Shown: piece by piece, positions 25,214 through 45,686 of the stretch
Position numbering within the stretch: position 1 is the first letter of the stretch
Layout: each line of letters starts with the position of its first letter
Assembly (NCBI RefSeq): GCF_012273515.2
Contig: NZ_CP050975.2
Span: 1,116,001 to 1,180,000, forward strand
Direction of reading: 5' to 3'
Source: Streptomyces sp. RPA4-2
Lineage (GTDB): Bacteria > Actinomycetota > Actinomycetes > Streptomycetales > Streptomycetaceae
Length of the DNA stretch: 64,000 bases
Notes under the pieces: generated by a model
Told to the model about the DNA's origin: nothing
Database searches by the model: none
Seen by the model: the letters and a program-made list of their open reading frames with translations, nothing else
Translations under genes and position numbers: made by a program

Positions 25214-26200
25214 TCACGGATGGCCGGCGTCCGGCGGCAGGTCGCAGACCGCGATCCCCCGCTCCCAGATGCTTCCCAGGACCAGGCGGCCGTCCGCCAC
25301 GCACACGCTGGTGACCATGCGGAACCGTGCGTGGCGGCGCTCCAGACGGTGGACGACGCGGCCCTCGTCGTCAACCGCGAGGACCCCGGTGGTGCTCGGC
25401 GGCCGGAACGGCGCGCGCACCGCGACACGGGCCGCCGCGTGCCGCAGGGCGGGACCGCGGCGGTGCAGGAGTTCCAGGGCGGGGACGCGGGGCCCGGCCA
25501 GGGCCACCCAGATCGGGCCGCCGGGCTCGCGCCAGAGGTTGTCCGGCTGTCCCGGCAGATCCTCGGCGAGGGTGTCGGCACGGCCCGCGGCCGGTCCGGT
25601 GAGCCGGACCCGGGTCAGACGCCGGGCGCCGGTCTCCGCGACGACGAGAAAGGACTCGTCGGCGGCCGGCGCGAGACCGTTGGCGAACTGCAGGCCCTCC
25701 AGGACCACCTCGGGTTCCGTGGCGCCGGGCGCCAGACGCAGCAGCATGCCCGTGCCGGTGTGTTCGACCAGATCCCCGATCCACCGGTCGAGCGGGTACC
25801 TGCGGCTGGAGACGGTGAAGTAGACGGTGCCGTCCGAGAGCGCGATCACGTTGCTGCAGAAGCGCAGGGGTGTGCCGGCCACCGTGTCCGCGAGGACCCG
25901 GACGGCGCCGTCGTGGACACGGACGCCGAGCAGCCCCCGGCGGGCGTCGCAGACCAGCAGGTCACCGTCCGGGAGAAGTTCGAGCCCGAGGGGCCGGCCT
26001 CCGGTCCGCGCGATCACCTGGACCCTGGTGCGAGCGGGGTCGGCGAGTCCCTCGACACGCAGGACGCGGCCGTCCTCGACGGCGGTGAGGATCCGGCCGT
26101 GCGGGTCGGCGACCACGTCCTCGGGGCCGTGGCCGCCGAGGGACACGCAGTGGCGCGGTACGAGGGCCGTGGGGCGGGCGGACTTCGGAGAGTGCGTCAT
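25214..26200 (-). CDS. SMP-30/gluconolactonase/strictosidine-synthase-like beta-propeller protein
   Basis: 328 residues forming a predicted six-bladed propeller. Family segments include GPEDVVADPHGRILTAVEDG, GRPLGLELLPDGDLLVCDA, DGTVYFTVSSRRYPL, LQFANGLAPAADESFLVVAE and DNLWREPGGPIWVAL. The order and the NGLA...VVAETG motif match the strictosidine synthase-like (adipocyte membrane-associated protein) branch, which has lactonase or esterase activities rather than alkaloid synthesis in bacteria. There is no signal peptide. The gene stands alone between the fluoride operon and a VOC gene. Confidence 0.85.
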   Translation of the reverse strand: MTHSPKSARPTALVPRHCVSLGGHGPEDVVADPHGRILTAVEDGRVLRVEGLADPARTRVQVIARTGGRPLGLELLPDGDLLVCDARRGLLGVRVHDGAVRVLADTVAGTPLRFCSNVIALSDGTVYFTVSSRRYPLDRWIGDLVEHTGTGMLLRLAPGATEPEVVLEGLQFANGLAPAADESFLVVAETGARRLTRVRLTGPAAGRADTLAEDLPGQPDNLWREPGGPIWVALAGPRVPALELLHRRGPALRHAAARVAVRAPFRPPSTTGVLAVDDEGRVVHRLERRHARFRMVTSVCVADGRLVLGSIWERGIAVCDLPPDAGHP

Positions 26201-26443
26201 GTCCGCCTCCGTACCCCCGCCGGCCCTTCTCCAACAGACGCCGGACCTCGGCGGCGCGGTACTCGGCGCGTCACCGCACCGTGCGCGGTCCGCGCGGTGC
26301 GGCCCGGAGCGGACGGATCGCCGCGAGGGGGACCGAGGTGGTCAGGATTCGAGAAGCCGTCGGGCGGTCCCCCGTCCTAGCGTGGAGGAGCCGGCGCGGT
26401 CCGTCGGCCGAACAGCAACGAGACACATCACCAGGGAGTCGCC

Positions 26444-26797
26444 ATGACCGCCGGCCTGAAGACCATCGTCTACCCCGTCAAGGACCTCGCACGGGCGAAG
26501 GCCCTGTTCAGCGGACTGCTCGGGGTGGAACCTTACGCGGACACCGCGTACTACGTCGGGTTCAAGGACGCCGGCCAGGACGTGGGGCTCGACCCCAACG
26601 GTCACGCCAAGGGAATGACCGGACCGGTTCCGTTCTGGCACGTCGACGACATCCGGGCCACCCTCGCCGGGCTTCTGGAGGCCGGGGCCGAGACGCTGCA
26701 GGACGTCCAGGACGTGGGCGGCGGCAGGCTGATCGCCTCGGTCAAGGACCCGGACGGCAACCTCGTCGGGCTCCTCCAGGACGCCCCCGGCGCATAG
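26444..26797 (+). CDS. VOC-superfamily (glyoxalase/bleomycin-resistance-like) protein
   Basis: 117 residues: a single vicinal-oxygen-chelate domain with paired beta-alpha-beta modules (KTIVYPVKDLARAKALFSG and PFWHVDDIRATLAGLLEAGA), ending in VKDPDGNLVGLLQDAP. The metal ligands typical of glyoxalase I are only partly present (His in FWHVDD; the terminal position is Leu rather than Glu), so catalysis is uncertain and drug- or ligand-binding is equally possible. ATG start after AGGGAG. Directly downstream lie a palindromic operator and a MarR gene; co-regulation is possible. Confidence 0.85.
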   Translation: MTAGLKTIVYPVKDLARAKALFSGLLGVEPYADTAYYVGFKDAGQDVGLDPNGHAKGMTGPVPFWHVDDIRATLAGLLEAGAETLQDVQDVGGGRLIASVKDPDGNLVGLLQDAPGA

Positions 26798-26823
26798 CAC
26801 CGGGCGGGCCCCGCCCGTAAAGA

Positions 26824-26842
26824 TGCAACCGCACTGGTTGCA
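26824..26842. promoter_or_regulatory. Perfect palindrome TGCAACC-GCACT-GGTTGCA, likely MarR operator
   Basis: Seven-base arms with a 5-base centre, 38 bases upstream of the MarR-family start codon at 26881. MarR proteins bind 16-20-bp palindromes of this size and usually autorepress. The TTGCAC at its right end could double as a -35 element, so binding would block the polymerase. Confidence 0.6.
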
Positions 26843-26880
26843 CGCTCAACGAACAGTGGCGGCTCTGTTACCGTGCAGAC

Positions 26881-27276
26881 ATGGCAGCGAACACGGCGGA
26901 TGAGGTCCGGCTCGAGGACCGGTGGCGGGACATCCTGTCGGTGCACGCGCGCACGATGTGCGAGATCGACCGCGCGCTGCATCCGCACGGTCTGGGCGCC
27001 AGCGACTTCGAGGTGCTGGACATCCTCGCCTCCGGGGAGCTCTCGCACGCGGGCGAACAGTGCCGGGTGCAGAACATCGCCGACCGTGTCCATCTGAGCC
27101 AGAGCGCCCTGTCCCGCCTGATCGGGCGGCTGGAGAAGGACGGACTGGTCCAGCGCACGGTGTGTGCGGAGGACCGGCGCGGAGTGTGGGTCGCGCTCAC
27201 CCGCAAGGGCCGTGACCTGCACGCCGAGGTGCGCCCGCTGCAGCGCGCCGTCCTCGCCCGCATGCTGGCCGGCTGA
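26881..27276 (+). CDS. MarR-family transcriptional regulator
   Basis: 131 residues. A winged helix-turn-helix fold with dimerisation helices: WRDILSVHARTMCEIDRALHPHGLGASDFEVLDILA, then the recognition region NIADRVHLSQSALSRLIGRLEKDGLVQR and the wing CAEDRRGVWVALTRKG (residues about 15-110; longest stretches are typical of the family). Three cysteines (in TMCEID, EQCRVQ and TVCAEDRR) raise the possibility of redox sensing as in OhrR-type members. A perfect palindrome upstream is the probable autoregulatory operator. Confidence 0.92.
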   Translation: MAANTADEVRLEDRWRDILSVHARTMCEIDRALHPHGLGASDFEVLDILASGELSHAGEQCRVQNIADRVHLSQSALSRLIGRLEKDGLVQRTVCAEDRRGVWVALTRKGRDLHAEVRPLQRAVLARMLAG

Positions 27277-27332
27277 GGGCCGCTCTTCGCGGACTCCCCC
27301 GTACACGGCCCGGACTACCCGGACCACCCGGA

Positions 27333-28445
27333 CTACGGGGTGGCCCGGGGCGGCGCCGCGTCTCCGGCGCCCGGGCGGCGGTCCATCGGCCGGGCCGGCG
27401 GGATGGGCGTGGCGGCGAAGTCCCGCGGTCCGGTCCACAGCGCGGGGACCGCGTCGCCGCGGCGGCACAACTCGTACGCGATCGCCTCGTAGTTGACCCG
27501 CCAGCCGTTGAAGTGGGGCCACGCCTCCCGCGCCGTCCGCTCGGCGGGGAAGCCCGCCGCGCGCACCATGGACACCGCCGCGTCGAACTCCGCGAAGGAC
27601 AGCTGGATCGGAGTGTCCGGGGCGGGGTCGGCGTCGTACGCGAAGCGCAGGGAGCGCGCGATGTCGCGCAGTGCGGTGAAGCCCGCGCGCAGGACCAGCC
27701 GGGCTTCGGGCGGGGCGCTGCCCGGGGTGAGGGCCAGGTGCAGGGCGGCCGCGTCCATGACGGAGACCAGACCGACGATCCAGCTGCGGTACGGCCGCGG
27801 GGAACGGAACGCCAGCAGGACCGGATACGTGGAGTGGCTCTCGCCGATGTCCGAGGCGAGCCGTTCCCAGGAGCGGTACAGCTCGGGGAGCGCGATCTCG
27901 GTGTCGACCAGCCACTGCCGGGCCAGGATCTCCGGCCCCCAGGCGGGTTCGCCGGCGCGCGACTGGAGCAGGGTCACCTCCAGTTCGCGGCGGTTGTAGG
28001 CCGCGTAAAGGGTGGGCAGGTAGGCGATCTGGAGGGCGATCACGACCGGTCCCGTGGCCGCCGCGAGGAAGTCGACGACGGACAGGTGCAGACGGTCACC
28101 GCTGGCGAAACCGAGCGTGAACAGGCTCGATCCGGCCTCTCGCACGGACTGGCTCCAGGTGAGCGCGGAGAGGGCGTGCAGCAGCAGTCCGAAGCCGAGC
28201 AGGGCACCGCCGAGCCAGCTCGCGAGCATGCCGACCAGCATGAGCGGGGCCAGCCAGGTCTGCGCGCGGTCGATGGCGTCGTAGCCGCCGCCGGGGGCCG
28301 CCAGGCGCAGGAGCCGACGCAGCCCGCGCCACCAGCGGATCACCAGCGAGGAGTAGAGCCCCCGCGGCACCACGAGGGTGCGCAGGATGCTGGCGAGCAC
28401 CAGGACGAGAAGCAGCCCGCCGGCGACGCCCGAGATCCAGTTCAT
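27333..28445 (-). CDS. Membrane protein with a potassium-channel-like pore segment
   Basis: 370 residues. Three or four N-terminal membrane helices (residues about 5-27, 65-90 and 120-145) include, between two of them, SSLFTLGFASGDRLHL, which resembles the pore helix and selectivity filter (T-x-G-[YF]-G-D) of two-helix potassium channels, but with an inserted AS before GD. After the last helix comes a soluble domain of about 200 residues (helical, with PELYRSWERLASDIGES and the terminal Pro-rich tail). I do not recognise a characterised homologue. An ion-channel-like or mechanosensitive role is possible; the odd filter makes selectivity uncertain. It is convergent with the MarR gene. Confidence 0.75.
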   Translation of the reverse strand: MNWISGVAGGLLLVLVLASILRTLVVPRGLYSSLVIRWWRGLRRLLRLAAPGGGYDAIDRAQTWLAPLMLVGMLASWLGGALLGFGLLLHALSALTWSQSVREAGSSLFTLGFASGDRLHLSVVDFLAAATGPVVIALQIAYLPTLYAAYNRRELEVTLLQSRAGEPAWGPEILARQWLVDTEIALPELYRSWERLASDIGESHSTYPVLLAFRSPRPYRSWIVGLVSVMDAAALHLALTPGSAPPEARLVLRAGFTALRDIARSLRFAYDADPAPDTPIQLSFAEFDAAVSMVRAAGFPAERTAREAWPHFNGWRVNYEAIAYELCRRGDAVPALWTGPRDFAATPIPPARPMDRRPGAGDAAPPRATP

Positions 28446-28490
28446 GCGGCCATTGTCACGCCCGGCACGGGCCGGACGGCGCGACGGATC

Positions 28491-28586
28491 CGGTACCTGC
28501 GGATGGCGGTACCTACAGTTGCCGGTACCTACAGTTGCCGGTGCCTACGGATGCCGGTACCTACAGTTGCCGGTGCCTACGGATGC
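28491..28586. repeat. 16-bp minisatellite, six units of two alternating kinds
   Basis: Units of 16 bp start at 28491, 28507, 28523, 28539, 28555 and 28571. Three read CGGTACCTACAGTTGC, two read CGGTGCCTACGGATGC, and the first is an intermediate form. It is intergenic, just upstream (on the minus strand) of the channel-like membrane protein gene. Confidence 0.9.
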
Positions 28587-28682
28587 CGGGTGCGTCCGCG
28601 CGCGGGCCGGCGGTGCTCATGGCGACGGCGGGCGCCCCTCGACCGGATTTTTGTCGAGGGCCCGTCGCCGCGTCGCTCCGGA

Positions 28683-29102
28683 TCAGACGCCCGGGCGGGC
28701 CAGGAGGGTGCGGACGCCCTCGGAGGTGAGCGTCAGACCGTGCGGCGAACTCGCGTCGATGGTGAGCGCCAGATCGCCGGACGGCCACTGCGAGGCCAGC
28801 GCGCCCAGGGGAACCATCCGGTAGCGGGAGACGAAGGGCAGCAGCCCGGCCATCTCCAGCTCCGAGGTGAACACCGGCACCACCTGCTCCCCGCCCGGCT
28901 GGTCGAGGACCGGCAGCGCCACGGCCGCGGGATCGGTGGCGTCCTGCTCGCTCGCGTCGTCCGGTACGGGAACCAGCACCTCGCTGCCGGCCAGCGTGTC
29001 CAGTGCCACCACGTCGCGGGTGTTCTCCGCGAGGGTGTCCAGGGCCCGCTGGGCCGGGGTCGCGGGCGTCGGCCGGTGGTGGTCGTTCGAGGGTGTGTCC
29101 AT
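28683..29102 (-). CDS. SseB-family protein
   Basis: 139 residues from the ATG at 29102. The N-terminal part (RALDTLAENTRDVVALDTLAGSEVLVPVPDD) and the later QVVPVFTSELEMAGLLP and LALTIDASSPHGLTLTSEGV segments match the SseB N-terminal domain as found in many Streptomyces proteins. The enteric SseB name derives from an enhanced-serine-sensitivity phenotype; the function in actinobacteria is unknown. No signal peptide or membrane segment. It lies between the channel-like gene and GtrA on the same strand, with gaps too large to claim coupling. Confidence 0.8.
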   Translation of the reverse strand: MDTPSNDHHRPTPATPAQRALDTLAENTRDVVALDTLAGSEVLVPVPDDASEQDATDPAAVALPVLDQPGGEQVVPVFTSELEMAGLLPFVSRYRMVPLGALASQWPSGDLALTIDASSPHGLTLTSEGVRTLLARPGV

Positions 29103-29201
29103 GGCAGATCCCCATGAGTAGCGGTCGGACCGCCCGGCACGTGATCCGTCCCGGGCGCGGTTCCCGTCGCGCGTACCCATCCACGGCCGGGACATTCCGC
29201 G

Positions 29202-29585
29202 TCAGGACGACGGAATCATGATCGCCCGGCTGGCGAGGAACGTGAACGGCACGGCCACCGCCGAGGCGAGCAGCGCCGCGGTCCGGGACTCGCAGTGGCC
29301 CACCTCGACCAGGAAGTGCAGGGCGAGCGTGGAGACGACCAGGTTCGTGGCGGTGGCGAGCGGGAAGCGCACGAACTTCCGCAGGGTGGGACGCGTCCGG
29401 TAGGTGAAACGCGCGTTGAGGAAGAACGAGACGACCGTCGCCCCGGCGAACGCCACGAGATGGGCGACCAGGTAGGGAAGGACCGTCAGCAACGTGAGGT
29501 AGAAGCCGTAGTACACCGCGGTGTTGGCCACGCCGACCACGGCGAACCTGAGGAACTGGCCGCCCATCAGCCGCTGCCGGAGCAA
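29202..29585 (-). CDS. GtrA-family membrane protein
   Basis: 127 residues with four membrane helices, starting with the family's FLRFAVVGVANTAVYYGFY and with the middle segment AGATVVSFFLNARFTYR. GtrA proteins are small flippase-like partners for polyprenyl-linked sugar transfer to the cell surface, such as glucosyl or arabinosyl carriers. The annotated start is a TTG; an ATG at 29567 (MGGQFLRFA) fits the family better and would give 121 residues. It is divergent from the RNA-repair operon. Confidence 0.88.
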   Translation of the reverse strand: MLRQRLMGGQFLRFAVVGVANTAVYYGFYLTLLTVLPYLVAHLVAFAGATVVSFFLNARFTYRTRPTLRKFVRFPLATATNLVVSTLALHFLVEVGHCESRTAALLASAVAVPFTFLASRAIMIPSS

Positions 29586-29833
29586 CGCCGGGGCCGCGCG
29601 GACGGTGGCCGCCGGTCGAGACGTCGAGAGAAAAGTCCGATCATGTCCTCATCATTGAAGCAGAGCCGGGAGGGCTCCCGGTCCACTCCCCTCCCTTGCC
29701 CTGCCCCGCCGTGACGGCACGGCCCGGAAAACCAGGCGCCGTCGCCGGACCGGACGATTACAGTCGGCGCTCTCATTTCCGGAACCGTGCCGTGACCGGG
29801 GCCGCGCCGTTTTTCACTGGGGGACAGAGCACC

Positions 29834-31672
29834 ATGGGGTCCGACCGTTCAGGCCTGCCCGGCGGGGGTGTGCGTGTGCACTACCCGCGTACCCCGCATC
29901 TGCCCTGGTCACCGGGGGCGACCTCGGACGACGTACGGGTAGCGGACCTGGCGGGTCTGCGGGACCTGGAGGTGGTGGTCACCGAAAAGCTCGACGGGGA
30001 GAACACCACCCTGTACGCCGACGGACTGCACGCCCGGTCGCTCGACTCGGCGCACCATCCGTCGCGGGCGTGGGTGAAGGCTCTGCAGGGACGCATCGGC
30101 GCGGCCCTTCCGCCCGGGTGGCGGGTGTGCGGTGAGAACCTGTACGCGCGGCACTCGATCGCGTACACCGAACTCGACAGCTGGTTCTACGGGTTCTCCG
30201 TCTGGGACGGTGAGCGGTGCCTGGGCTGGGACCGGACGGTGCGGTTCCTGCGGCGGCTGGGCGTTCCGGTGCCGCGGGTGCTGTGGCGGGGCGTCCTCGA
30301 CGAGCGGGCCGTACGGGCCCTGCGCGTCCTGCGGCTGGATCCCGCCCGGCAGGAGGGGTACGTCGTACGGACCGTCGAGGGCTTCGGACACGAGGAGTTC
30401 GGCCGCCGGGTGGCCAAGTGGGTGCGGCCCGGACATGTGCGGACCGACACGCACTGGATGCACGCCGAAGTGGTGGCCAACGGGCGGGGCACTGCCGCCG
30501 CGCTGTGGGACGTACGGTCGGGCGCGGCCCCCGACGCCCGGGCACTCGCGGCGGCGACGGGAACAGGGTCGGAGACGGAACCGGCAACGGGGTCGGAGAC
30601 GGGACCGGCAACAGGTTCGGGGACGACCGAGGAGGCATCCGCCGACGATGCCGTCGTCGCGGAGGTGTCCGCCAGGCTCGATGTGCTGGGGCGGACCGGG
30701 GACACCCGGCTGACGGGCGTCCTCGCCGCCCTGCTGCACGGCCGGCGCCGTGCCGGGCTGGCTCCCCGGCTGGCCGGACCGCTCGGCATGCCGTCGGCAC
30801 GGCGGGTCGCGGACCTGGTCGGGCTGCAGTCCCTGCTGCGCCGCCCCTACCCCGACGAGGAACGGCGTGCCGGACTGGGGCGCATGGCCGTCGCGGCCGA
30901 CCTGGGCGTACTGCACGCGGTCGCCGGGGCCGTCGCCGTCACCGAGGGCGCCGCGGCGCGCGAACAGGTCGACTGGTCGGCACTGCACGCGGAGGAGGCG
31001 GGGCTCCTCGGGGAGGAACCGTTCGAGCGGCTGCGCGCGAGCCTGCACCGTGCCCTCACCGGCCTCGGCGACGCGGACGCGGCCGACCGCTGCTGGGCAC
31101 AGGCACGGGCGTCCTACGCCGCGGGCCACCTGGCCGGCGCGGAGGCGGCCGTGGCGGCGACCTGGCGGCTGCGGAGCGGCGCCTTCCCCCGGCTGATCCA
31201 TTTGGTGGGCCCGTCGGGCAGCGGCAAGAGCACGTTCGCCGCCGGACTGCCCGGGATCGACGCCCGTGTCTCCCTGGACGACCTGCGCTCGGCGCGCGGC
31301 TCACGCTCCGACCAGCGGGCCAACGCGGACGTCCTCCGCGAGGGCCTGCGACGGCTGGACTCCGCGCTCGCCGCCGGTCCCGCGACCGTGGTGTGGGACG
31401 CCACGTCGCTCGGCCGGCACCAGCGTTCCCTGGTGGACGCCGTGGCGCACCGCCGTGACGCGCTGATCACCCAGGTGGTCGTGCTGGCCACGGACGACGA
31501 GCTGACCGGGCGCAACGCCGAGCGGACGCACCCGGTGCCACCCGAGGTGCTCGCCGCACAACTGCGCCGGTTCGACCCGCCCTACCCGGGTCAGGCCCAC
31601 CGAACGTGGTACGTCGGCGCGGGCGGAACCGTGGACGACGCCGACGGCACACTGGACGGAAGCGAGCGGTGA
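29834..31672 (+). CDS. RNA ligase fused to polynucleotide kinase (RNA end-healing and sealing enzyme)
   Basis: 612 residues from the ATG at 29834; GTG at 29876 ([11 protein letters not shown]) is another good start. The N-terminal half (about 15-220) is a T4 Rnl2-like nucleotidyltransferase: the AMP-accepting Lys52 in motif I TEKLDGEN, motif III-like [10 protein letters not shown], motif IV EGYVVRT and motif V AKWVRP. A helical linker with a low-complexity [12 protein letters not shown] stretch follows. The C-terminal part (about 450-600) is a P-loop kinase of the polynucleotide-kinase type: Walker [10 protein letters not shown] (459-467), then DDLRS and [13 protein letters not shown]. It should phosphorylate 5'-OH ends and ligate RNA. 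Its TGA overlaps the next ATG by one base, so it is coupled to the MJ1316-EEP-2H-PAP gene. Confidence 0.88.
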
Positions 31673-34600
31673 TGCGTACCAGCGACGAGATCTACCACCG
31701 GGTCCGCTGGGACCCGCGCTTCGACCCGGCCCGGTTCGTGCTGGGTGTCCACCAGCGCGGGGCAGCCCCCAAGCGGGTCCCGCTGCCCGCCTTCGTGCCC
31801 GGGGGTGACATCCCCTGGCACCGGGTGCTGTTCGTCGAGGCCGACGGCGAGGTGGTGTGGGACCGGGCCACCGGTACCGACCGCATCGACATGTCGACCG
31901 CCGGGCGGGTGCGGACCCCGCGCCTTCTGCGGGCCCCGTTCTTCACGGCCGACACGCCGCACGTGTGGGACGACGCGGCGGCGCGGTGGCGTGCCCCCGG
32001 CCGTACGGAGGCGACCGCGGACGCGACCCGTCTGCGGGTGCTGACCTGGAACACGCTGTGGGACCGCTACGACAGCGACCGCATCGACACCGACCACCGC
32101 CGGCCCCTGCTGCTCGCGGCCCTGGAGGACGCCGACGCCGACGTCATCGCACTCCAGGAGGTCGAGGCCGGCCTGCTCGACCTGCTGCTGCGGGCCCCTT
32201 GGATCCGCGCCGCCTACACGGTGGGCAGCGACCCCCGAGGGAAACGGGTCGACGACACCGGACTGCTGCTGCTCAGCCGGCTGCCCGTGCGGGAGGCCGG
32301 CCATCATGCGCTCGGGCCGCACAAGGGCGTCACCGCCCTCACCCTGGAGACGGCGTCCGGCCCGCTCGTGGTGGCCGCCACCCACCTCAGCAGCAACCAC
32401 TCCGACAACGGCCCGGCCCGCCGTGAGGCCGAACTCGCGCGCATCGCCGAGGGACTTGCCGACGTAGTCGGTCCGCTGATGCTGCTGGGCGACTTCAACG
32501 ACGGCGACGACGGCCCGGCCGGACCCGCCGCCGCCCTCCAACTGCGGGACGCCTGGACCGAGGTGCGCGGGCCCGCCGACCAGAGCCCCACCTTCGACCC
32601 CGCCGTCAATCCGCTGGCCGCGGTCTCCTCGCTCTCCGGCCGTTCCTCCCGGCTCGACCGGATCCTGCTGCGGGGCCGCGCGCTCCGCCCGACGGACGTG
32701 GCCCTGCGGGGCGACTCCCCCGGTCCCGGCGGGCTGTACGTCTCCGACCACTTCGGTGTGGAGGCGGTGGTGGGCCTGGGCGGGGCCGATGTCGCCACGG
32801 CCCGCGACGGCGCCGGATCCACGCCGGATCCCGGCTCCGCTTCCGGCCTCGGCCCCCCTTCCGGCCTCGGCTCCGAAGGCGCCGAACACGCGGTTGGCGA
32901 CTTCGCAGCCCGCGAGGCCCTCGACCCCGGTCCGACCGCCCGGACGGCGGTGGCGTGGCTGCCTTCCGAGGATCTGTGGCCGGTGATCCAGGAACTCCGG
33001 CGGGCGTACGACCCGCAGGCCCGTCGCTGGCCGCCGCACGTCAACCTGCTCTTCGGCTTCGTCCCGGAATCCGCGTTCGAGCGGGCCGTCCCGCTGCTGT
33101 CCCGGGTCGCGGCCGCGTCACCGCCGTTCGACATCCGGCTCGGCGGTGTGTACGCCTTCGGACACCGGGACGCCGCCACGGTGTGGCTCGACCCGGCGGG
33201 GGCCGGCCCGGAGCCGTGGGCGCGGTTGCGTGCCGCGCTGGAACAGCGGTTCCCGCGGTGCCGGGGCCGTGCCGAGGGATTCACCCCGCATCTGACCCTG
33301 GGCCGGGTACGGGACACGCGGCCCGTCGTCGCCGACTGCGCCGCGCGGCTCGGCTCCGCCGTCCCGGCCCGGGTCGGGCACCTCGTCCTGCTCTCCCGTC
33401 GGGGCGCGGAACCGATGCGTCCGCGGGCGACGGTCGCACTGGGCACCGGTGAGGTGCGATGGCTGCCCGACCCGGCCACCGCCACGGCCACCACGGCTGC
33501 GACGGGGACCGCGGTCGCCGTCGGCGGCACGGCCGCCACCGCCACCGCCGTGCCGCCGGACGACCGTGGTGCCGAGCACACCGCGCGGTGCCTCTGGGAC
33601 GCACTCGGCGAAGGAACCGTGCACGTCGTGGGGTCCCGGCGCATGGGCGGCGCGCTGCCCGGAGCCGATCTGGACCTGGTCGCGGCCCTGCCCGGCGTCG
33701 TCGACATGGCGGACGTCCAGGCACGGGTGACCAGGGCCCTTCCGGGCGCCACCCGGGTACGGCAGGTGACCGGCGCCCGGGTGCCGGGGCTGCGGCTGAG
33801 CGTCGGCGGACTCGGTGTCGACCTGAGCGTGGTCGCCACCGGCCCCCTGACTCCCGCCGAGGCGGTGGACCAGCGCGCCGGGCTTGGCGCGCCGGCCGCG
33901 ACCGCCCTCAGCGCGGTCAGCGACGCGGACGCCGTACGGAGCGCGGTCGGCGGCCGGCACGCCGCGTTCGCCCGGCTGGCCGCGGAGGTCAAGGCCTGGG
34001 CGAAGGCGCGGGGTCTCGACTCGGCACCGTTCGGCGGGCTGCCGGGCCTCGCCTGGTCCGTCCTCGCCGCCCGTACGACCCGCGAGGCGGACGTCCTGTC
34101 CCCGGCCGGACTGCTGCGGGACTTCTTCGGGACCTGGGCCGCATGGGACTGGCGCGACCCGGTCGGGCTCGACCCGGTCGGGCGCGGTTCGGTGGGGCGC
34201 GGCGGTCCCGTCGGGCTCAGTCACGTCGGCCTCGGTCCCGTCGACCAGCCGTCTTCCGCGGTGTCGGTCATGACCCCGACCGCCCCGGTCCGCCTCTGCA
34301 CGGCCCAGGTCGGTCCCGGCTTCCGCGACCTCCTGGCGGACGAGCTGTACCGCGCCTGGGACATCCTGGAGACCGCCGCGCGGACCGGCGCCGATCCCCT
34401 GCCCGAGCTGCTGTCACCCCCGCCGCTGCACCGCCGGCACGCCGCGTGGCTGGTGGTGGGCCTGCGTGCGGCGGGGACGGAGGAGTTCGAGGAGACCCGG
34501 GGGCGCGTGCGCGGGCGCGTACGGGCCCTGCTCACCGCTCTGGAGGACGCCGGGACGCCCGACGCGCACGCGTGGCCCCACCCGTTCGAGGAGGGCCCGG

Positions 34601-34776
34601 CGTCGGCGGCGTACGCCATCGGGCTCGGCCGCGACCCCCTCGGCACGGCCCGGCTCACCGGGATCACCCGGAGATGGGGCAAGGGGCTGCCCGGGGTCGT
34701 CACCGAGAGGGCGGAGTGCGGTGACGTGCCCACCCTCCGCTCCCCCGGCCACGTTTTTCCGGCACACCGGGAATAA
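31672..34776 (+). CDS. Four-domain RNA-repair protein: MJ1316 - EEP phosphoesterase - 2H phosphoesterase - poly(A) polymerase
   Basis: 1034 residues. In order: an MJ1316 (DUF504) domain (about 1-72; [31 protein letters not shown]), thought to read cyclic or phosphate RNA ends; an EEP nuclease/phosphatase domain (120-370) with N127, E163 (QEVE), H238 (THLSS), D274/N276 (GDFND), D329 and D359-H360 (SDHF); a 2H/LigT domain (about 425-600) with the two histidine motifs HVNL (456) and HLTL (540); and a nucleotidyltransferase (640-730) with GSRRMGG and the metal Asp pair D666/D668 plus D717. After that come helices and [13 protein letters not shown] and YAIGLGRD, resembling the central and RNA-binding parts of eukaryotic poly(A) polymerases. 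Linkers are Ala/Thr/Gly-rich. Coupled to the ligase-kinase; probably opens cyclic phosphates, trims and tails RNA ends. Confidence 0.88.
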
Positions 34777-34891
34777 GCGGGCTCTTCGCGGGAAACACCT
34801 CTCATTTCTCGTCGGGCGGGTTTGGGACGGCCCTCACAGGTCAGCCGTAATAGTGGATCGCACAGTCAATGCGGTAAGGACGTGATCTGCA

Positions 34892-35065
34892 GTGACCAAG
34901 CACCAGAAGTCACAGGCGAAGACGGAACAGGCCAAGGGCAAGGCCAAGGAAACCGTCGGCCGCACCGTCGGCAACGAGCGTATGACCGCCGAAGGCCGGG
35001 CGGAGAAGGCAAAGGGTGACACCCGTCAGGCCAAGGAGAAGATGAAGGACATTTTCCGGCACTGA
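34892..35065 (+). CDS. CsbD-family small stress protein
   Basis: 57 residues from a GTG at 34892 with AAGGA upstream. A Lys/Ala/Glu-rich helical protein with the CsbD pattern: KGKAKETVGRTVGNERM, TAEGRAEKAKGDTRQA, KEKMKDIF. Homologues are general-stress proteins under SigB-type control in Bacillus and are abundant in Streptomyces; the molecular role is unknown. It is directly followed by a strong hairpin terminator and then by an anti-sigma-type ATPase gene, in keeping with a stress-response island. Confidence 0.9.
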   Translation: MTKHQKSQAKTEQAKGKAKETVGRTVGNERMTAEGRAEKAKGDTRQAKEKMKDIFRH

Positions 35066-35082
35066 GGGTCACGCGCTGCATC

Positions 35083-35121
35083 GGGCCCGCCGCACGCGCA
35101 TGCGGCGGGCCCGCTTCTTTT
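35083..35121 (+). terminator. Strong intrinsic-type terminator after csbD-like gene
   Basis: A perfect 12-bp stem (GGGCCCGCCGCA pairing with TGCGGCGGGCCC) with a 6-base loop, followed by GCTTCTTTT. The T-rich tail is unusual for Streptomyces and makes an intrinsic terminator likely. Confidence 0.85.
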
Positions 35122-35138
35122 GAGCAAGGAGTGAGGAA

Positions 35139-35594
35139 ATGTGCGGAGAGTACCGGGCGCACGCCAACGACACGATGCCTGATCCGCCCGAGTCGCACTC
35201 CCCCGGACCGCGCAGCCCGGCCGAGGTGCGTGAGGCCGTACGGCAGGCGCTCGACAGCGCGCGACGGTCGCGCGGCCCCGGGGCGACGACCGATGCGACA
35301 GCCGTCGGTGACGTCCTGCTCGTCGCCTCCGAACTCACCACCAACGCGATGCTGCACGGCGGCGGGGTCACGGCGTTCGAGGTGATACCGGGCGAGCGTG
35401 AGGTGCGCCTGTCGGTGAGCGACCGCAGCGACGACATGCCGACACCCGTGCGACGCGCCGGCGGTCCCGGCACCTTGCAGATCGGCGGCCATGGCTGGCC
35501 GATCATATGCCTGCTGGCCTGCGACATCATGATCTCGTATCTCCGTGCGGGAGGAAAGCGCATCACGGCCGTCGTACCGCTTTCTCCCCGGTAA
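35139..35594 (+). CDS. ATP-binding protein of the RsbW/SpoIIAB anti-sigma (HATPase_c_2) type
   Basis: 151 residues. Histidine-kinase-like ATPase fold without a phosphoacceptor domain: the N box is ASELTTNAMLHGGG, followed by VRLSVSDRSDD (G1-like) and PGTLQIGGHGWPIICLLA (G2-like). The DxGxG of the G1 box is degenerate (DRSDD), so ATP binding may be altered. Streptomyces encodes many such orphan anti-sigma-like proteins that are set against SpoIIE-type phosphatases. Start ATG with GAGTGAGG upstream. It sits in an island with CsbD, a second HATPase, Wbl and ANTAR genes. Confidence 0.88.
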   Translation: MCGEYRAHANDTMPDPPESHSPGPRSPAEVREAVRQALDSARRSRGPGATTDATAVGDVLLVASELTTNAMLHGGGVTAFEVIPGEREVRLSVSDRSDDMPTPVRRAGGPGTLQIGGHGWPIICLLACDIMISYLRAGGKRITAVVPLSPR

Positions 35595-35714
35595 TGAACC
35601 GGTCGCGGCCCGGATGAGCCGGACACGGAGGCACACACCTTTCTTCCGGGTATTCGAGGACATGAGAGCCACCGAAACCATCACCCGGTCGTCCGGGGTC
35701 AGCCGGGAGGAAAA

Positions 35715-36236
35715 TTGTCGGAGTCGGCACATGACGAGGCCCGTCGCGGTGCGGAGCGCGCACGGGGCGACACGGGGCGTGAGGAGACCGAGGAGGAGAG
35801 GGCCGACCGCAAATGGGGTGACCTCCTCCAGGAGATCCGGGTCGCCCAGACCGGAGTGCAGATCCTGTTCGGATTTCTGCTCACGGTCGTCTTCACACCC
35901 CGGTACACGCAATTGGAACAGATGGACAGAACGATCTACATCGTCACGGTCGTTCTCGGGGCCTCCGCCACCGGGGCACTGATCGGCCCGGTGTCCCTGC
36001 ACCGGATCGTCGCCGGCAGACGGGTGAAGGAGCGGGCGGTCGTATGGGCGTCACGGCTGACGCTCGCGGGGCTCGTGCTGCTGCTCGCGACGATGACGGC
36101 GTCGCTCCTGCTGATCCTGCGGGTCGCCACCCACGACGCCTATGTGCCCTGGCTCGTCACGGGGATCGTCGCCTGGTACCTGTTCTGCTGGTTCGCCGTA
36201 CCGATGTGGGTCCGCAGCCGCCACACGACGTCGTGA
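35715..36236 (+). CDS. DUF6328 membrane protein
   Basis: 173 residues from a TTG start decided by the strong GGGAGG six to eight bases upstream. A charged N-terminus (EETEEERADRKWGDLLQEIRVAQTG) is followed by four membrane helices: VQILFGFLLTVVFTP, TVVLGASATGALIGPV, LTLAGLVLLLATMTASLLLIL and WLVTGIVAWYLFCWFAVPMW. The LLQEIRVAQTGVQILFGFLL block is the family hallmark. Function unknown. It converges on a small hypothetical gene, with a hairpin overlapping both ends. Confidence 0.85.
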   Translation: MSESAHDEARRGAERARGDTGREETEEERADRKWGDLLQEIRVAQTGVQILFGFLLTVVFTPRYTQLEQMDRTIYIVTVVLGASATGALIGPVSLHRIVAGRRVKERAVVWASRLTLAGLVLLLATMTASLLLILRVATHDAYVPWLVTGIVAWYLFCWFAVPMWVRSRHTTS

Positions 36237-36246
36237 CCCTTCCGCG

Positions 36247-36267
36247 GGCCCTCACGCGGTGAGGGCC
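36247..36267. terminator. Perfect 9-bp hairpin shared by two convergent genes
   Basis: GGCCCTCAC and GTGAGGGCC pair around a 3-base loop, between the stop of the DUF6328 gene and overlapping the stop codon of the minus-strand gene at 36252. It can act in both directions; there is no T tract. Confidence 0.6.
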
Positions 36268-36590
36268 TGCCGGGGCACACCGGGCGAAGAGGGGGATGCG
36301 CCCCGCACGGCGGGGCGTACCGGATAGGTGGTCTTGCCCGGGTCCACCACCGGGTCCCCCAGCACGATCCGGCCCGCCGCGTGCAGCGCGTCGCACTCGT
36401 CGGTGGGCAGGGCGACGTAACACCCTCCCCGCCCGGCGCCGGCATCCATGGGCTGCCAGTAGCCGTACCGGCGTCGCCCGCTGGCCTGCACGGTGAGGCA
36501 GACGGGAGCACGCTGCACGGTGATGAGACGCAGCACCTCGGCACCGTCGGGGCCGAGCGGAGCGGATGGGCGCGGGAGGGCTCGGAGCAT
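36252..36590 (-). CDS. Small hypothetical protein
   Basis: 112 residues. Central part: RRRYGYWQPMDAGAGRGGCY and VALPTDECDALHAAGRIVLGDPVVDPGKTTYPVRPA. No membrane helix or signal peptide. The regular codon use, the aromatic conserved-looking core and the TDECDALHAAGRI helix argue that it is a real gene, but I do not recognise a characterised family. It could be a small DNA- or ligand-binding protein; nothing decides this. Confidence 0.6.
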   Translation of the reverse strand: MLRALPRPSAPLGPDGAEVLRLITVQRAPVCLTVQASGRRRYGYWQPMDAGAGRGGCYVALPTDECDALHAAGRIVLGDPVVDPGKTTYPVRPAVRGASPSSPGVPRQALTA

Positions 36591-36774
36591 CGTCAGCGGT
36601 CTCCGTTCAGGGCTCGCGGCACGGCGCGGCGATGGGGGGCGGGCGTCATGTGCGGGCGGCCTCTCGACGGACGGGTGCGATCACGTACCGCGGGGAGCGG
36701 AAACGATCTTCGTTGCTGATCGGCATTGTTGCGGACGGCACTGACAACGCGAAGGCGGCGCTCGCGGAGCCGGT

Positions 36775-37125
36775 TCACCGACGGCGGACCGCCGTCTCCG
36801 TCCGATGCGCTCGAGCGGTCAGCTCGCCCTGGACGAAGGGGTCGTGGTCGGGGTCGTACGCCCCCGCGTGATCGGCGAGCGCCTCGGTGATCCGCTCCCA
36901 CTCCTCGACCTCCGCTCCCGCGATCAGCGCCTCCTGGCCGGTGAGCGTGTCGCTCCGGGCCGTCTCCCGGGCTGCCTCCAACGCGGCCTTCGCCTCGTGG
37001 TGCCGCATTCCGGTGGCCGTACGGCACACGCGTGCCCAGGCGGCACGTTCCTCCTCGGAGGGCTCACGCACCTCGTCGTCCGTCACGTCGCCGCGTGCTG
37101 ACGCTCGGTCCTGCTCCAGGCTCAC
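36775..37125 (-). CDS. Small acidic hypothetical protein
   Basis: 116 residues from a GTG at 37125 with GAGGTGGAG upstream. Highly charged and helical (REPSEEERAAWARVCRTATG, AALEAARETARSDTLTGQEA, VEEWERITEALADHAGAYDP). No known domain recognised. The Ser/Glu/Arg-rich composition and helical periodicity suggest a small coiled or helical-bundle cytoplasmic protein. The upstream longer frame to 37275 lacks a good ribosome binding site. It lies between two genes of the stress/anti-sigma island. Confidence 0.65.
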   Translation of the reverse strand: MSLEQDRASARGDVTDDEVREPSEEERAAWARVCRTATGMRHHEAKAALEAARETARSDTLTGQEALIAGAEVEEWERITEALADHAGAYDPDHDPFVQGELTARAHRTETAVRRR

Positions 37126-37291
37126 TGCTCCACCTCGTTCAGGTGTACGGAACTGATGTGTCCTACAGCAGTCCCGTGTGCCCCCGCCTGGAGAACCGAC
37201 ACCTGCCGGGAGCGACGGGACCGTACGGGGAGCAGCCCGCGGTACGCCCGGAGGTGGCCGCCCGCCCCTCGACAACCCTGGGACCGGGCGG

Positions 37292-37774
37292 TCACCAGGG
37301 CAGCAGGGCGTGCACGTCCTTCCCGTCGGGGCGCACCACGACGCTCACCCGATGACAGAGCGCGCGGACGAGGTGCCAGCCGATGCCGCCCGCGCCCCGG
37401 GACGGGTTCATGCGGCGGGGCGTGGGCGGCGTGGTGCTGCTGTCGCGCAGGGTCACCTGCACGCCGTCGCCGGTGGGGCGTACCCGCAGTTCGAAGGGGC
37501 CGGGAGCGTACTGGATCGTGTTGGCGGCCAGCTCCGTCACCACCAACAGGACGTCGTCCCAGTACTCGGGCGACGCGGGCGGTGACGCTCGTGCGAGGAC
37601 GCGCAGATATCCCTCCGCCGAGAGGCGGGCGTCGGTCACGTCGCGCAACTGACCGGGAAAGACCACGGCGAGGCTCTCCAACTCCTCGTCCGACGGCCGC
37701 TTGTCCCCGCTCGGATCACTTTCCATCACGTCTGCCCCGGACTCGTCGGCGGGATCTCTGCTCTTGCTCCACAT
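37292..37774 (-). CDS. ATP-binding anti-sigma-type protein (HATPase_c_2)
   Basis: 160 residues from the ATG at 37774 (GTG at 37777 also possible). After an acidic N-terminus, the fold begins with LAVVFPGQLRDVTDARLSAEGYLRVLAR, then the N box LLVVTELAANTIQYAPG, the VTLRDSST strand and the G2-like RGAGGIGWHLVRALC (all within residues 35-150; the G1 box is degenerate). It resembles RsbW-like serine kinases/anti-sigma proteins. It is a different sequence from the 35139 protein. Next to the Wbl gene and in the same direction, 66 bases downstream. Confidence 0.88.
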   Translation of the reverse strand: MWSKSRDPADESGADVMESDPSGDKRPSDEELESLAVVFPGQLRDVTDARLSAEGYLRVLARASPPASPEYWDDVLLVVTELAANTIQYAPGPFELRVRPTGDGVQVTLRDSSTTPPTPRRMNPSRGAGGIGWHLVRALCHRVSVVVRPDGKDVHALLPW

Positions 37775-37840
37775 CACGCGGACGCCACCTTTCGTGCGCT
37801 CCTGCCCACGCGCCGGCCCCACTCGTTCAGTACGGCGGCG

Positions 37841-38101
37841 CTAGGTTCCGGCGTCCCTGGCGGCACGGCCGACCGTGCGCCGCCTCAGCGCGCGCCGTTC
37901 GTTCTCGCTCGTCCCGCCCCAGACACCGATGGTCTGGCCCGTGTCGAGCGCCCAGCGCAGGCACTCGTCACGGACGGGACACCGCCGGCAGACGGCCTTC
38001 GCCTCCTCGACCTGCGGCAGCGCGGGGCCCGTGCTGCCGATGGGGAAGAAGAGGTCGGGGTCGACGGTGCGGCATGCCGCCGATTCGCGCCAGTTGTCCA
38101 T
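37841..38101 (-). CDS. WhiB-like (Wbl) iron-sulfur regulator
   Basis: 86 residues, with GGAGG eight bases before the ATG. The four cluster-binding cysteines are C10, C38, C41 and C47 in the CxxC-type pattern (RRCPVRDEC), followed by the turn GVWGGTSENERR and a basic C-terminal tail RRRTVGRAARDAG. Wbl proteins hold a [4Fe-4S] cluster, bind the principal sigma factor and control development, stress or antibiotic genes in actinobacteria. Which Wbl subfamily it belongs to cannot be decided by eye. It may be co-transcribed with the HATPase gene downstream. Confidence 0.96.
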   Translation of the reverse strand: MDNWRESAACRTVDPDLFFPIGSTGPALPQVEEAKAVCRRCPVRDECLRWALDTGQTIGVWGGTSENERRALRRRTVGRAARDAGT

Positions 38102-38345
38102 GGGAACCTCCTGCGATCACGGTGGTGCCTTCGTCGGACTTCGGTCCCCCTTCGGGTCACCGTTGATCCACGGGTGAAACACAGGGTCTTGCCGGGACAG
38201 CATTGATTGAACGCGAAATGACACCGGCGGCCGTGCGCGGGCACGCCCTCCGGGGGCACCCGTGGGGCGCGACGAGGAAGCGCGGGTGGCAAAATGGGAT
38301 CCCTGGCGGGCGACGACGCGGCTTCAACAGCAGAGCAGGTGGCAC

Positions 38346-39050
38346 ATGTCACATGAGCCCGGCGAGGTCTGGGAACAGTTCGCCGTCGCCCTGGCGGAAA
38401 TGGCGCGCGACCTGCTGGCCCAGGACTCGGTCCAGGACACCCTGGACCGCATCGTGGAGCACGCCACGGTACTGATCAACGGCTGCGACGACGCGGGCAT
38501 CCTCACTGTGCGACGGGGCGAGGTGCACGCTCTGGCGGCGACGAGCGACGTGGTGCGCCGCGCGGACCGGGTCCAGCAGGACCTGCGGGAGGGCCCCTGC
38601 TTCGACGCCGTGACCGACCGTCAGCAGATCTACGCCATCGAGGACTTGAGCCGGCCGCACGAACGCTGGTCCCGCTTCGCCCCCGAGCTGAGGAAACTGG
38701 GCATGGGGAGCGTGATGGGCTTCCTCCTCTTCACCGAGGACGACGAACTGGGCGCCCTCAACCTGTACTCCCACCGGCCGCGCGCCTTCGACGAGACCGC
38801 CCGGCAGGCCGGCTGGATCCTCGCCTCGCACGCGGCCGTGGCCTTCTCGGCGGCCCGCACGCACCAGCAGCTCGGCGACGCCCTGGAGACCCGTCACGAG
38901 ATCGGCGAGGCGATGGGCATCCTCATGGAGCGCTACGGGCTGCCCGAGAACGCGGCCTTCAAGGTGCTCAAGAAGGCGTCACAGGACCGCAATGTCAAAC
39001 TGCGCGAGATCGCCCGCCAGGTCTGCGAGACGGGCGAGAAGCCGGGCTGA
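38346..39050 (+). CDS. GAF-ANTAR domain protein (RNA-binding antiterminator type)
   Basis: 234 residues from the ATG at 38346, AGGTGG upstream. A GAF sensor domain (about 15-160: VEHATVLINGCDDAGILTVR, REGPCFDAVTD, MGSVMGFLLFTEDDELGALN) is followed by an ANTAR domain (about 170-230: TRHEIGEAMGILMERYGLPE and FKVLKKASQDRNVKLREIA). ANTAR domains bind tandem hairpins in nascent RNA and prevent termination. The pattern HEIGEAMGILMERYG is the hallmark. In Streptomyces such proteins usually act as stand-alone sensors. It is convergent with the diaminopropionate operon; no target RNA can be named. Confidence 0.93.
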   Translation: MSHEPGEVWEQFAVALAEMARDLLAQDSVQDTLDRIVEHATVLINGCDDAGILTVRRGEVHALAATSDVVRRADRVQQDLREGPCFDAVTDRQQIYAIEDLSRPHERWSRFAPELRKLGMGSVMGFLLFTEDDELGALNLYSHRPRAFDETARQAGWILASHAAVAFSAARTHQQLGDALETRHEIGEAMGILMERYGLPENAAFKVLKKASQDRNVKLREIARQVCETGEKPG

Positions 39051-40238: not shown

Positions 40239-41318
40239 TCAGCCGTACCGACGCAGGTCGTGGAAGAAGTCGTCGACGAGTCGGAGGTCCCCCTTGCGGG
40301 CCACTTCGTCGTAGACGTACTTGCCGACGGCGAGGTCGAGGACACCGAGCCCGAAGGGCGAGAAGATCACGGTCCGGTCGGCCGGCGGGGTCACCCGTCC
40401 GGTCAGGACGTCGTCGAGGGTGCCGTCCAGGAAGTCGCGGCCGCCGGTGAGCTGTTCGGCCAGGTGGGGTGAGGTGTCGGCCTTCAGGCAGTGCTCGACG
40501 TCGTCGACGATGTTGGCGGCGGCGAGCAGGATCTCGGGGGCGAGATCGCGCAGCGACACGTTCAGCACCAGGGGGTGGTGGGAGAACCAGTCCGGGTCCG
40601 TGACATGGGGTTCGCCGGCGACGGTCGCGAAGACCACCAGATCGCTGGCGCGGATCAGCTCCTCGGCGCTGTCGTGGACCGTGATCCGAGGGGCGTGTCC
40701 GGCGGTTCCGGCCTCCCGCAGGTATCCGGAGAAACCCGCGGCGCTGTCGGCCGACAGATCGTGCACACCCACGGTGTCGAAGTCCCAGCCGGTGCGGGCC
40801 AGGAACGTGTGGATGTAGCGGGCGATGAGACCGGTGCCGACGAATCCGACCCGGGTCGGGCGGGGGCGGCCGCGGCTGAGCGCGTCGGCCGCCAGCGCGG
40901 CGGACGCCGCTGTCCTGGTGGCGCTGATGACGGAGCTCTCCAGGCAGGCGAAGGGGTAGCCCGTGTCGTGGTCGTTGAGGACGAGGACCGCGGAGGCCCG
41001 GGGGATGCCCGCCTGGACGTTGCCCGGGAAGCTGGAGATCCACTTCATGCCGTCCACCCGGATCGGCCCGCCGATGGACGCGGGCAGCGCGATGATCCGG
41101 TCCGCCGGGCGGTCGGGGAAGCGCAGGAAGTACGAGGGCGGATTGACCGAGTCCCCCGCGCCGTGCAGCCGGTAGGCGGCCTCGACGAGTTCCACGATCT
41201 GTCGCTCGCGTCCACCGAGTGCTTGCTGCACCTGCGCGCCGGAGATCACCGCGAAGGTGGGCGCCGGGGTGGAACGGGGAGTGGCGGCCTCGGTGAGAGG
41301 AGAGGGCAGGACGGTCAT
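40239..41318 (-). CDS. sbnB: SbnB-like 2,3-diaminopropionate synthase (ornithine cyclodeaminase family)
   Basis: 359 residues. Ornithine cyclodeaminase/mu-crystallin fold: substrate domain with NPPSYFLRFPDRPADRI and GMKWISSFPGN, Rossmann domain with VGFVGTGLIARYIHTFLA, and the SSVISATRTAA and FSPFGLGVLDLAVGKYVY segments. SbnB oxidatively hydrolyses the SbnA product with NAD+ to give L-2,3-diaminopropionate and alpha-ketoglutarate. Its start overlaps the stop of the TauD gene (ATGA), and SbnA follows after 38 bases. The alpha-ketoglutarate by-product is the co-substrate of the adjacent dioxygenase. Confidence 0.94.
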   Translation of the reverse strand: MTVLPSPLTEAATPRSTPAPTFAVISGAQVQQALGGRERQIVELVEAAYRLHGAGDSVNPPSYFLRFPDRPADRIIALPASIGGPIRVDGMKWISSFPGNVQAGIPRASAVLVLNDHDTGYPFACLESSVISATRTAASAALAADALSRGRPRPTRVGFVGTGLIARYIHTFLARTGWDFDTVGVHDLSADSAAGFSGYLREAGTAGHAPRITVHDSAEELIRASDLVVFATVAGEPHVTDPDWFSHHPLVLNVSLRDLAPEILLAAANIVDDVEHCLKADTSPHLAEQLTGGRDFLDGTLDDVLTGRVTPPADRTVIFSPFGLGVLDLAVGKYVYDEVARKGDLRLVDDFFHDLRRYG

Positions 41319-42319: not shown

Positions 42320-42394
42320 CGGGATTCCTTTCGGTTGCCGCTCACGAGGGGTGAGGCCGCTCAGGGGTGGGGTCCGCTCAGGGGTGAGGTCCGC

Positions 42395-45673: not shown

Positions 45674-45686
45674 CGAATGGCCTTCC

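Follow-up and report, generated by a model that had tools for sequence, protein, structure and literature searches.

A two-gene operon of Streptomyces sp. RPA4-2 may encode an RNA end-healing, sealing and tailing system

We analyze two overlapping genes of Streptomyces sp. RPA4-2 and propose, with moderate confidence, that their products constitute a two-protein system for the healing, sealing and tailing of RNA ends. The genes lie in a 64 kb stretch (the window; G000:C1:1116001-1180000) of a 9.86 Mb single-contig genome, and the closest named protein matches to both, among the matches listed, are from Streptomyces. The proposal draws on domain homologies, conserved catalytic residues, a degraded HD site, and the linkage and co-occurrence of the two genes. 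The features involved, in window positions and all on the + strand, are the following:

29870..31672, +: gene 1, ligase - degenerate HD - polynucleotide kinase (600 residues from GTG 29870; 612 from ATG 29834)
29969..30424, +: RNA_ligase domain PF09414 (Pfam 6e-34), nucleotidyl lysine K52 (K40 in the 600-residue numbering)
30497..31183, +: degenerate HD domain, homologous to that of HD-Pnk/DRB0098 (hhalign over 220 columns: probability 98.5, E 1.2e-14)
31193..31582, +: 5'-OH polynucleotide kinase-like P-loop domain AAA_33, K465 (Pfam 4e-22)
31670..31674, +: TGATG stop/start overlap, one base common to genes 1 and 2
31672..34776, +: gene 2, MJ1316-EEP-2H-poly(A) polymerase (PAP), 1034 residues
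31672..31866, +: MJ1316 domain, predicted reader of 2',3'-cyclic RNA ends (PF04457, E 1.5e-18)
32041..32751, +: EEP phosphohydrolase domain, TDP2-like, with N127, E163, H238, D274, N276, D329 and H360 (Exo_endo_phos PF03372, 1.8e-17)
32962..33408, +: 2H phosphoesterase domain, motifs HVN (H456) and HLT (H540) (2_5_RNA_ligase2 PF13563, E 1e-34)
33547..34731, +: canonical eukaryote-type PAP, with palm (G654, S655, D666, D668, D717), central and C-terminal domains (PAP_central PF04928, 9e-10)

All six domains listed in the first-pass annotation, which had been made from the sequence alone, score above the curated Pfam cut-offs; the degenerate HD domain between ligase and kinase had been missed. 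The two overlapping frames described there are both present, and the single base they have in common suggests translational coupling; the same one-base overlap occurs in 30 of the 39 loci with a measured gap between the genes. The start then assigned to gene 1, ATG 29834, is probably 12 codons early, and GTG 29870 the probable start, given that six near-identical listed relatives (P0124-P0129) have 600 residues, not 612, and that the N-terminus of Deinococcus radiodurans DRB0100 (MRVKYPS) aligns with VRVHYPR at GTG 29870. Because the start has moved, K52 becomes K40, the number of the adenylated lysine of DRB0100. A scan of starts in 40 loci and the window chose them by their distance to the YPR motif, and therefore lends no independent support to GTG 29870.

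Gene 1 looks like a fusion of a DRB0100-like ligase with an HD-Pnk (DRB0098). Its ligase region matches DR_RS15960, encoded on plasmid MP1 of D. radiodurans, at 56% identity over 206 residues, with the adenylated lysine at the same place. We identify DR_RS15960 with DRB0100 because its start, MRVKYPS, is that of the DRB0100 cloning primer printed in PMC1997131, and because it adjoins a PARG gene and an HD-kinase gene, as in the arrangement given in the available text of PMC11833690. In the Deinococcus kinase gene the HD domain (PF01966) lies N-terminal to the kinase. DraRnl was rejected as the ligase's relative in favor of DRB0100, since DR_RS15930, which we take to be DraRnl, matches at only E 0.01. 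On MP1 (L085, 6001-11867) the RNA ligases DR_RS15960 and DR_RS15930 stand within 6 kb of each other and are only distantly similar.

K52 and the P-loop K465, named as catalytic in the first-pass annotation, are invariant in 30 aligned gene-1 proteins. The HD site was defined as nine His/Asp positions conserved in four Deinococcus proteins, with metal-binding roles assigned in this analysis, and was scored in 140 of 141 gene-1 proteins, one of fewer than 500 residues having been dropped. At six of the nine positions none of the 140 has the conserved residue; of the other three, the H of HD survives in 121 proteins, the D of HD in 21 and one H of HHH in 94, and no protein retains more than three of the nine. 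Gene 1 of the window keeps only the H of HD. On this pattern the HD domain is probably dead, and the degraded site makes gene 1 most likely unable to clean 3' ends. HD-Pnk reportedly acts as a 2',3'-phosphoesterase in work on Runella; the pattern suggests that 3'-end healing could have been taken over by the 2H and EEP domains of gene 2 in place of HD.

Gene 2 carries PF04457, PF13563, PF03372 and PF04928 in one chain, and its catalytic residues are invariant in 31 aligned proteins (fragmented copies were left out), save for a 2H domain that is missing in four of them. A second comparison covered 113 longer relatives of a cyanobacterial (Calothrix) gene-2 homologue, hereafter the Calothrix-type relatives. 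The available text of PMC6514570 states the role of MJ1316 as a binder of 2',3'-cyclic RNA ends, citing a 2016 survey. The EEP domain displays the motifs TWN, LQE, GDxN and SDH together with the fold; N127, E163, H238, D274, N276 and D329 are present in 113/113 Calothrix-type relatives and H360 in 112/113. Its closest solved fold by PDB profile and fold matches is TDP2, and an assignment to the CCR4 type was discarded, the profile search ranking TDP2 at 1e-8 and CNOT6L at 0.04; ANGEL2 is not among the fold matches listed, which excludes nothing. The nuclease function previously given to this domain is not established. A phosphatase role would fit the pathway better, and the EEP enzyme ANGEL2 removes 2',3'-cyclic phosphate by way of a 2'-phosphate, according to the available text of PMC13247085.

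H456 and H540 are kept in all 27 aligned gene-2 proteins that have a 2H domain. The first 2H motif is HVN in 23 of them and HVT in four, to be compared with the HxT/S pattern, and the second is HLT in 27/27. In the Calothrix-type relatives H540 is found in 112/113 and H456 in 110, with three gaps, and the third position of the first motif is N in 64 and T in 46. The earlier statement that catalytic residues are intact is too strong for 2H, where HVN replaces HxT/S.

By its PDB and fold matches, on which the eukaryotic assignment rests, the predicted tailing domain belongs with the canonical poly(A) polymerases of eukaryotes. Its central and C-terminal domains, the latter RRM-like in eukaryotic PAP enzymes, are both present. 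G654, S655, D666, D668 and D717 are invariant in the 31 gene-2 proteins and in 113/113 Calothrix-type relatives, in agreement with the catalytic role that the first-pass annotation gave to D666 and D668. The active-site Lys and Tyr near ATP, K228 and Y237 in bovine PAP, align with K774, kept in 31/31 gene-2 proteins, and with a second position that is Y in 72 of the 113 Calothrix-type proteins.

From sequence we infer every catalytic step of the mechanism that follows, along with the order of the steps, the substrate and the takeover. MJ1316 would capture an RNA with a 2',3'-cyclic phosphate end, 2H would open the ring to leave a 2'-phosphate, and EEP would remove this phosphate (or the cyclic phosphate directly) to yield a 2',3'-OH end. 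The kinase would phosphorylate the 5'-OH of the partner RNA, and the ligase-like domain, adenylated on K52/K40, would join both ends; where bases have been lost or no partner is at hand, PAP would extend or tag the 3'-OH. The tRNA or mRNA cut by toxins that the first-pass annotation supposed would be a candidate substrate. In origin, gene 1 would derive from a DRB0100-like ligase and an HD-Pnk with a decayed HD domain, gene 2 taking over 3'-end healing. The order agrees with pathway logic laid out in the available text of PMC7824862, in which 2H enzymes open cyclic ends to linear ones for a phosphatase, kinase and ligase follow, and nucleotidyltransferases restore bases. A more specific version, in which the pair forms a self-contained machine that heals and then seals or extends, the eukaryote-type PAP rebuilding or tagging ends stripped of cyclic phosphates and healing having moved from a dead HD domain to the partner protein, is offered tentatively, as a possibility short of an even chance.

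The two genes are tightly linked. Searches scoring about 8000 candidates per gene returned at least 1244 relatives of gene 2 and at least 1331 of gene 1, of which the best 120 of 1244 and the best 120 of 1331 are listed; all four gene-2 domain families, PAP_central included, occur in the best 120 of 1244, and unbroken frames persist across many genera. MJ1316 is found in 19 of 61 related genomes and gene 1 (E <1e-90) in 16 of these 19, so that the two genes coincide in 16 of the 61; no genome of the 61 has a gene 1 at this threshold without MJ1316. A long gene-2 frame (902-1329 residues) is present in 15 of the 16, the sixteenth (G049) being truncated by a contig end, and domain models identify the full four-domain content in nine (the window's own genome and eight others). 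A scan of named genomes gave 45 loci, one of which (L053) had no match to the domain models; the other 44 comprise 35 with an unbroken four-domain gene 2, four without 2H, four broken and one (L031) whose frame is interrupted within PAP. At 38 of the 39 loci with an unbroken gene 2, the gene immediately upstream is gene 1, two of the 38 (L009, L043) being cut by a contig end. Distances within the two families are correlated (Mantel r 0.91, 0/999 permutations, 22 pairs including the window), a value that shared descent alone could also yield. Cyanobacteria also have this four-domain protein; it is about 28% identical and keeps the catalytic residues. In an even sample of the phylum PF04928 is found in three of 296 genomes, two of them over the cut-off including the window's own, and the full system is therefore rare overall.

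A number of findings weigh against the proposed healing, sealing and tailing system. The literature search returned no measured activity for any of these proteins. The weakest links are ligation, unproven even for DRB0100, the EEP domain, which could act otherwise, and the identity of the substrate. In the available text of PMC1997131, DRB0100 bound AMP at K40 and failed to join any DNA or RNA substrate offered to it, the 3'-phosphatase activity of DRB0098 could not be proven, and the HD-motif mutations H81A and D82E did not reduce DRB0098 activity, which weakens the takeover argument. Healing and sealing is still the best reading of what was first annotated as an RNA-repair operon, tempered by a closest tested ligase relative that was adenylated and did not ligate. 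The EEP domain is closer to TDP2, a tyrosyl phosphodiesterase, than to CCR4 proteins. The Tyr position of canonical eukaryotic PAP is Asp (D783) in 30 of the 31 actinobacterial gene-2 proteins, which makes the preferred nucleotide of the polymerase uncertain.

The remaining points of this kind come from the distribution of genes and domains. Gene 2 lacks 2H in an unbroken frame at four of the 44 loci (L037-L040), and three of the 61 genomes (G003, G004, G006) have a short MJ1316-2H protein that lacks EEP and PAP and is not accompanied by gene 1. KptA/Tpt1 is present in 18 of 19 MJ1316-positive genomes and in 25 of 42 MJ1316-negative ones. These figures bear on a route like that of Trl1, in which 2H leaves a 2'-phosphate, the ligase seals despite its presence, and a KptA/Tpt1 encoded elsewhere in the genome removes the phosphate, EEP and PAP serving elsewhere, for example in trimming and re-extension. 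The combination of ligase-kinase and 2H does resemble the tRNA ligases of fungi and plants, and KptA is encoded in the window's genome and in nearly all MJ1316-positive ones. However, KptA is also common in genomes without MJ1316, the ligase is of the DRB0100 kind, the four 2H-less loci keep EEP and PAP, and EEP is retained in 31/31 aligned gene-2 proteins, which makes such a route unlikely.

Gene 2 is also found without its partner, both in Catellatospora (L028), the one exception to the upstream position of gene 1, whose genome has only a weak ligase match (39% over residues 5-158, E 4e-10), and on the one cyanobacterial plasmid examined, from Calothrix. Gene 2 could on this account be chiefly an RNA 3'-end processing or tailing factor, acting as a decay mark or in quality control, with ligation as an actinobacterial add-on. 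The listing of PAP_central among the domains of the best 120 of 1244 relatives speaks in its favor, as does the available text of PMC5872136 and PMC8208693, where Streptomyces is said to lack PAP I and PNPase appears to make its tails, one Streptomyces cavourensis strain being reported with a transferred pcnB. Against this, the genes are nearly inseparable in the sampled actinobacterial genomes (16/16; 38/39 loci), and MJ1316 and 2H indicate cyclic ends rather than ordinary 3'-OH ends; we regard the idea as quite unlikely. The Calothrix record is Calothrix brevissima plasmid2 (L081, 11995-25082), a conjugative plasmid on which DrmC-like (DISARM), GmrSD-like and dynamin-like genes neighbor the gene-2 homologue.

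The three 2H-less Streptomyces loci form one clade and the fourth, from Actinoallomurus, falls elsewhere in the tree, so 2H was probably lost at least twice. Three Calothrix-type matches (P0335, P0350, P0361) also lack 2H in a precomputed domain list, two of the contigs behind them being shorter than 3,300 bases; in the same list P0320, P0336 and P0356 lack MJ1316, and P0356 lacks EEP as well. Loss of 2H would be compatible with EEP handling cyclic ends alone, as ANGEL2 does, a fit and not a proof. Minimal MJ1316-2H loci are represented by L065, L066, L067 and L082, and four Streptomyces plasmids (H5-H8) carry partial matches of this kind.

A promoter-like element precedes gene 1 in many loci, its trace in the window being the following:

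29759..29764, +: TACAGT, possible -10 element (upstream box degenerate in the window, GAAAACCAGGCGCC)

The element, TTATTCGRTGGATC-N17/18-TACAGTGA, about 40 bases before gene 1, reaches a threshold of at least 16 of 22 matches at 26 of the 41 sites, which comprise 40 loci plus the window, the window's own copy falling below it; the expectation from Markov shuffles is 0.05, a comparison that overstates the excess because the consensus was drawn from these very sequences and the loci are related by descent. In 14 genomes chosen for carrying the element at their operon, a looser pattern gives exactly one match in 12, in each case by coordinates the one ahead of this operon, and none in two, and the strict pattern is found in 10 of the 14, with 0 matches for reversed-pattern controls. 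A similar strict pattern has no match in the 61 related genomes, 16 of which have the operon, and this argues against generality, as does the degenerate box of the window.

The same 41 start sites show no exact LexA box (GAAC-N4-GTTC) in the preceding 250 bases. This result bears on the possibility that the pair repairs DNA or mixed DNA/RNA breaks by means of a TDP2-like EEP domain, a PNK-like kinase and the ligase of a radiation-induced Deinococcus operon. TDP2 is indeed the top EEP fold, but MJ1316, 2H and canonical PAP are RNA-directed families. DRB0100 is strongly induced by gamma radiation in a putative repair operon with DRB0098 and DRB0099 (available text of PMC1997131 and PMC11833690), although it failed to ligate DNA (PMC1997131). 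Taken with the missing LexA boxes, we consider DNA repair highly improbable.

Broken copies of the operon exist in Nonomuraea endophytica, two Saccharothrix species and Thermomonospora catenispora (L044, L049, L050, L051). The pair is disturbed in two of the 16 genomes that have both genes: in G044 gene 1 lies on a different contig with one in-frame stop, and in G012 it is split into ligase and kinase halves about 2.8 Mb apart (C1:8841896-8842948 and 6010958-6011710), of which the kinase half has stayed ahead of gene 2, by either rearrangement or assembly error. The broken operons, the displaced gene 1 with its stop, the degraded HD site and the degenerate promoter box of the window would all be expected of a system that in this lineage has decayed or is largely inactive. 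However, the active sites of ligase, kinase, EEP and PAP are invariant in the aligned sets, and frames are unbroken across many genera, so that general decay appears most improbable.

We did not identify a conserved third component. No Y-RNA or other Rfam RNA reached its gathering score at 26000-38500 of the window, and the multi-genus neighbor families checked were all large general ones. Around 53 loci the largest other neighbor clusters span 13, 10 and 8 loci in several genera, at scattered positions and on both strands. Three examples scanned were a short-chain dehydrogenase, a zinc alcohol dehydrogenase and a SpoIIE-type phosphatase, and the clusters were taken as chance company because they belong to large general families at scattered positions; the neighbor gene calls are rough (GC3) and may miss small genes. 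Phage origin was rejected, with no gene-2 match in 50,697 phage records, as were viral origin, with no confirmed gene-2 relative in two scans of viral contigs, and membership of a known defense family, PADLOC giving no match to gene 2 and, for gene 1, two that were weak (best E 0.0012). In the window, a gene for a CsbD-like small protein (34892-35065) lies directly downstream of gene 2 on the same strand, and a small nonribosomal-peptide-like cluster (40239-48386) encodes an AMP-binding/PCP/thioesterase protein, a PCP-hexapeptide protein, a TauD dioxygenase and an ornithine cyclodeaminase.

Each part of the proposed system has counterparts in known ones. The D. radiodurans genes DRB0100-DRB0099-DRB0098 encode a ligase, PARG and HD-Pnk, and gene 1 has ligase and HD-Pnk fused in the same order. 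In contrast to the Deinococcus operon, neither gene 1 nor gene 2 has a PARG domain by Pfam and the HD site is degraded, while gene 2 had no match on any Deinococcus plasmid record and was not seen in the four Deinococcus loci read. MJ1316-linked RNA repair systems were reportedly proposed by Burroughs and Aravind in 2016; LENG9 is a further protein of this kind. These proteins likewise combine MJ1316 with RNA-repair domains, and the minimal Streptomyces form has MJ1316 beside 2H; gene 2 differs in that its chain also includes EEP and a canonical PAP. Fungi may likewise have MJ1316-EEP-2H-PAP fusions. Unlike PAP alpha/gamma, yeast Pap1 and Pla1, the PAP of gene 2 is bacterial and shares its chain with end-healing domains. 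The EEP domain of gene 2 has a TDP2-like fold and catalytic residues in common with TDP2 and the EEP phosphohydrolases ANGEL2, Nocturnin and CNOT6L, whereas here the domain sits fused between MJ1316 and 2H. Trl1/plant tRNA ligase and Pnkp-Rnl-Hen1 also combine ligase, kinase and 3'-end phosphoesterase in one system. Here, unlike in Trl1 and the plant enzyme, 2H is in a second protein and the ligase is of the DRB0100 type, and, unlike in Pnkp-Hen1, Pfam finds neither a Hen1 methyltransferase nor a metallophosphoesterase domain in the two proteins (unlinked genes were not searched). The pairing of a dead-HD ligase-kinase with MJ1316-EEP-2H-PAP is not named in the available text of the open-access literature searched, which did not cover the main 2016 survey. 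The kind of system is already known, and the moderate confidence expressed above applies to the general reading of healing, sealing and tailing only.

If the proposal is correct, actinobacterial RNA repair would have an unusually complete toolkit in two proteins, and the replacement of a degraded HD domain by a new healing arm of 2H and EEP would explain why the genes travel together. On the more specific and more tentative version, a dedicated tailing polymerase would be available to some Streptomyces and filamentous cyanobacteria, groups in which tailing is attributed to PNPase, and in many actinobacteria it may stand under its own single-target promoter.

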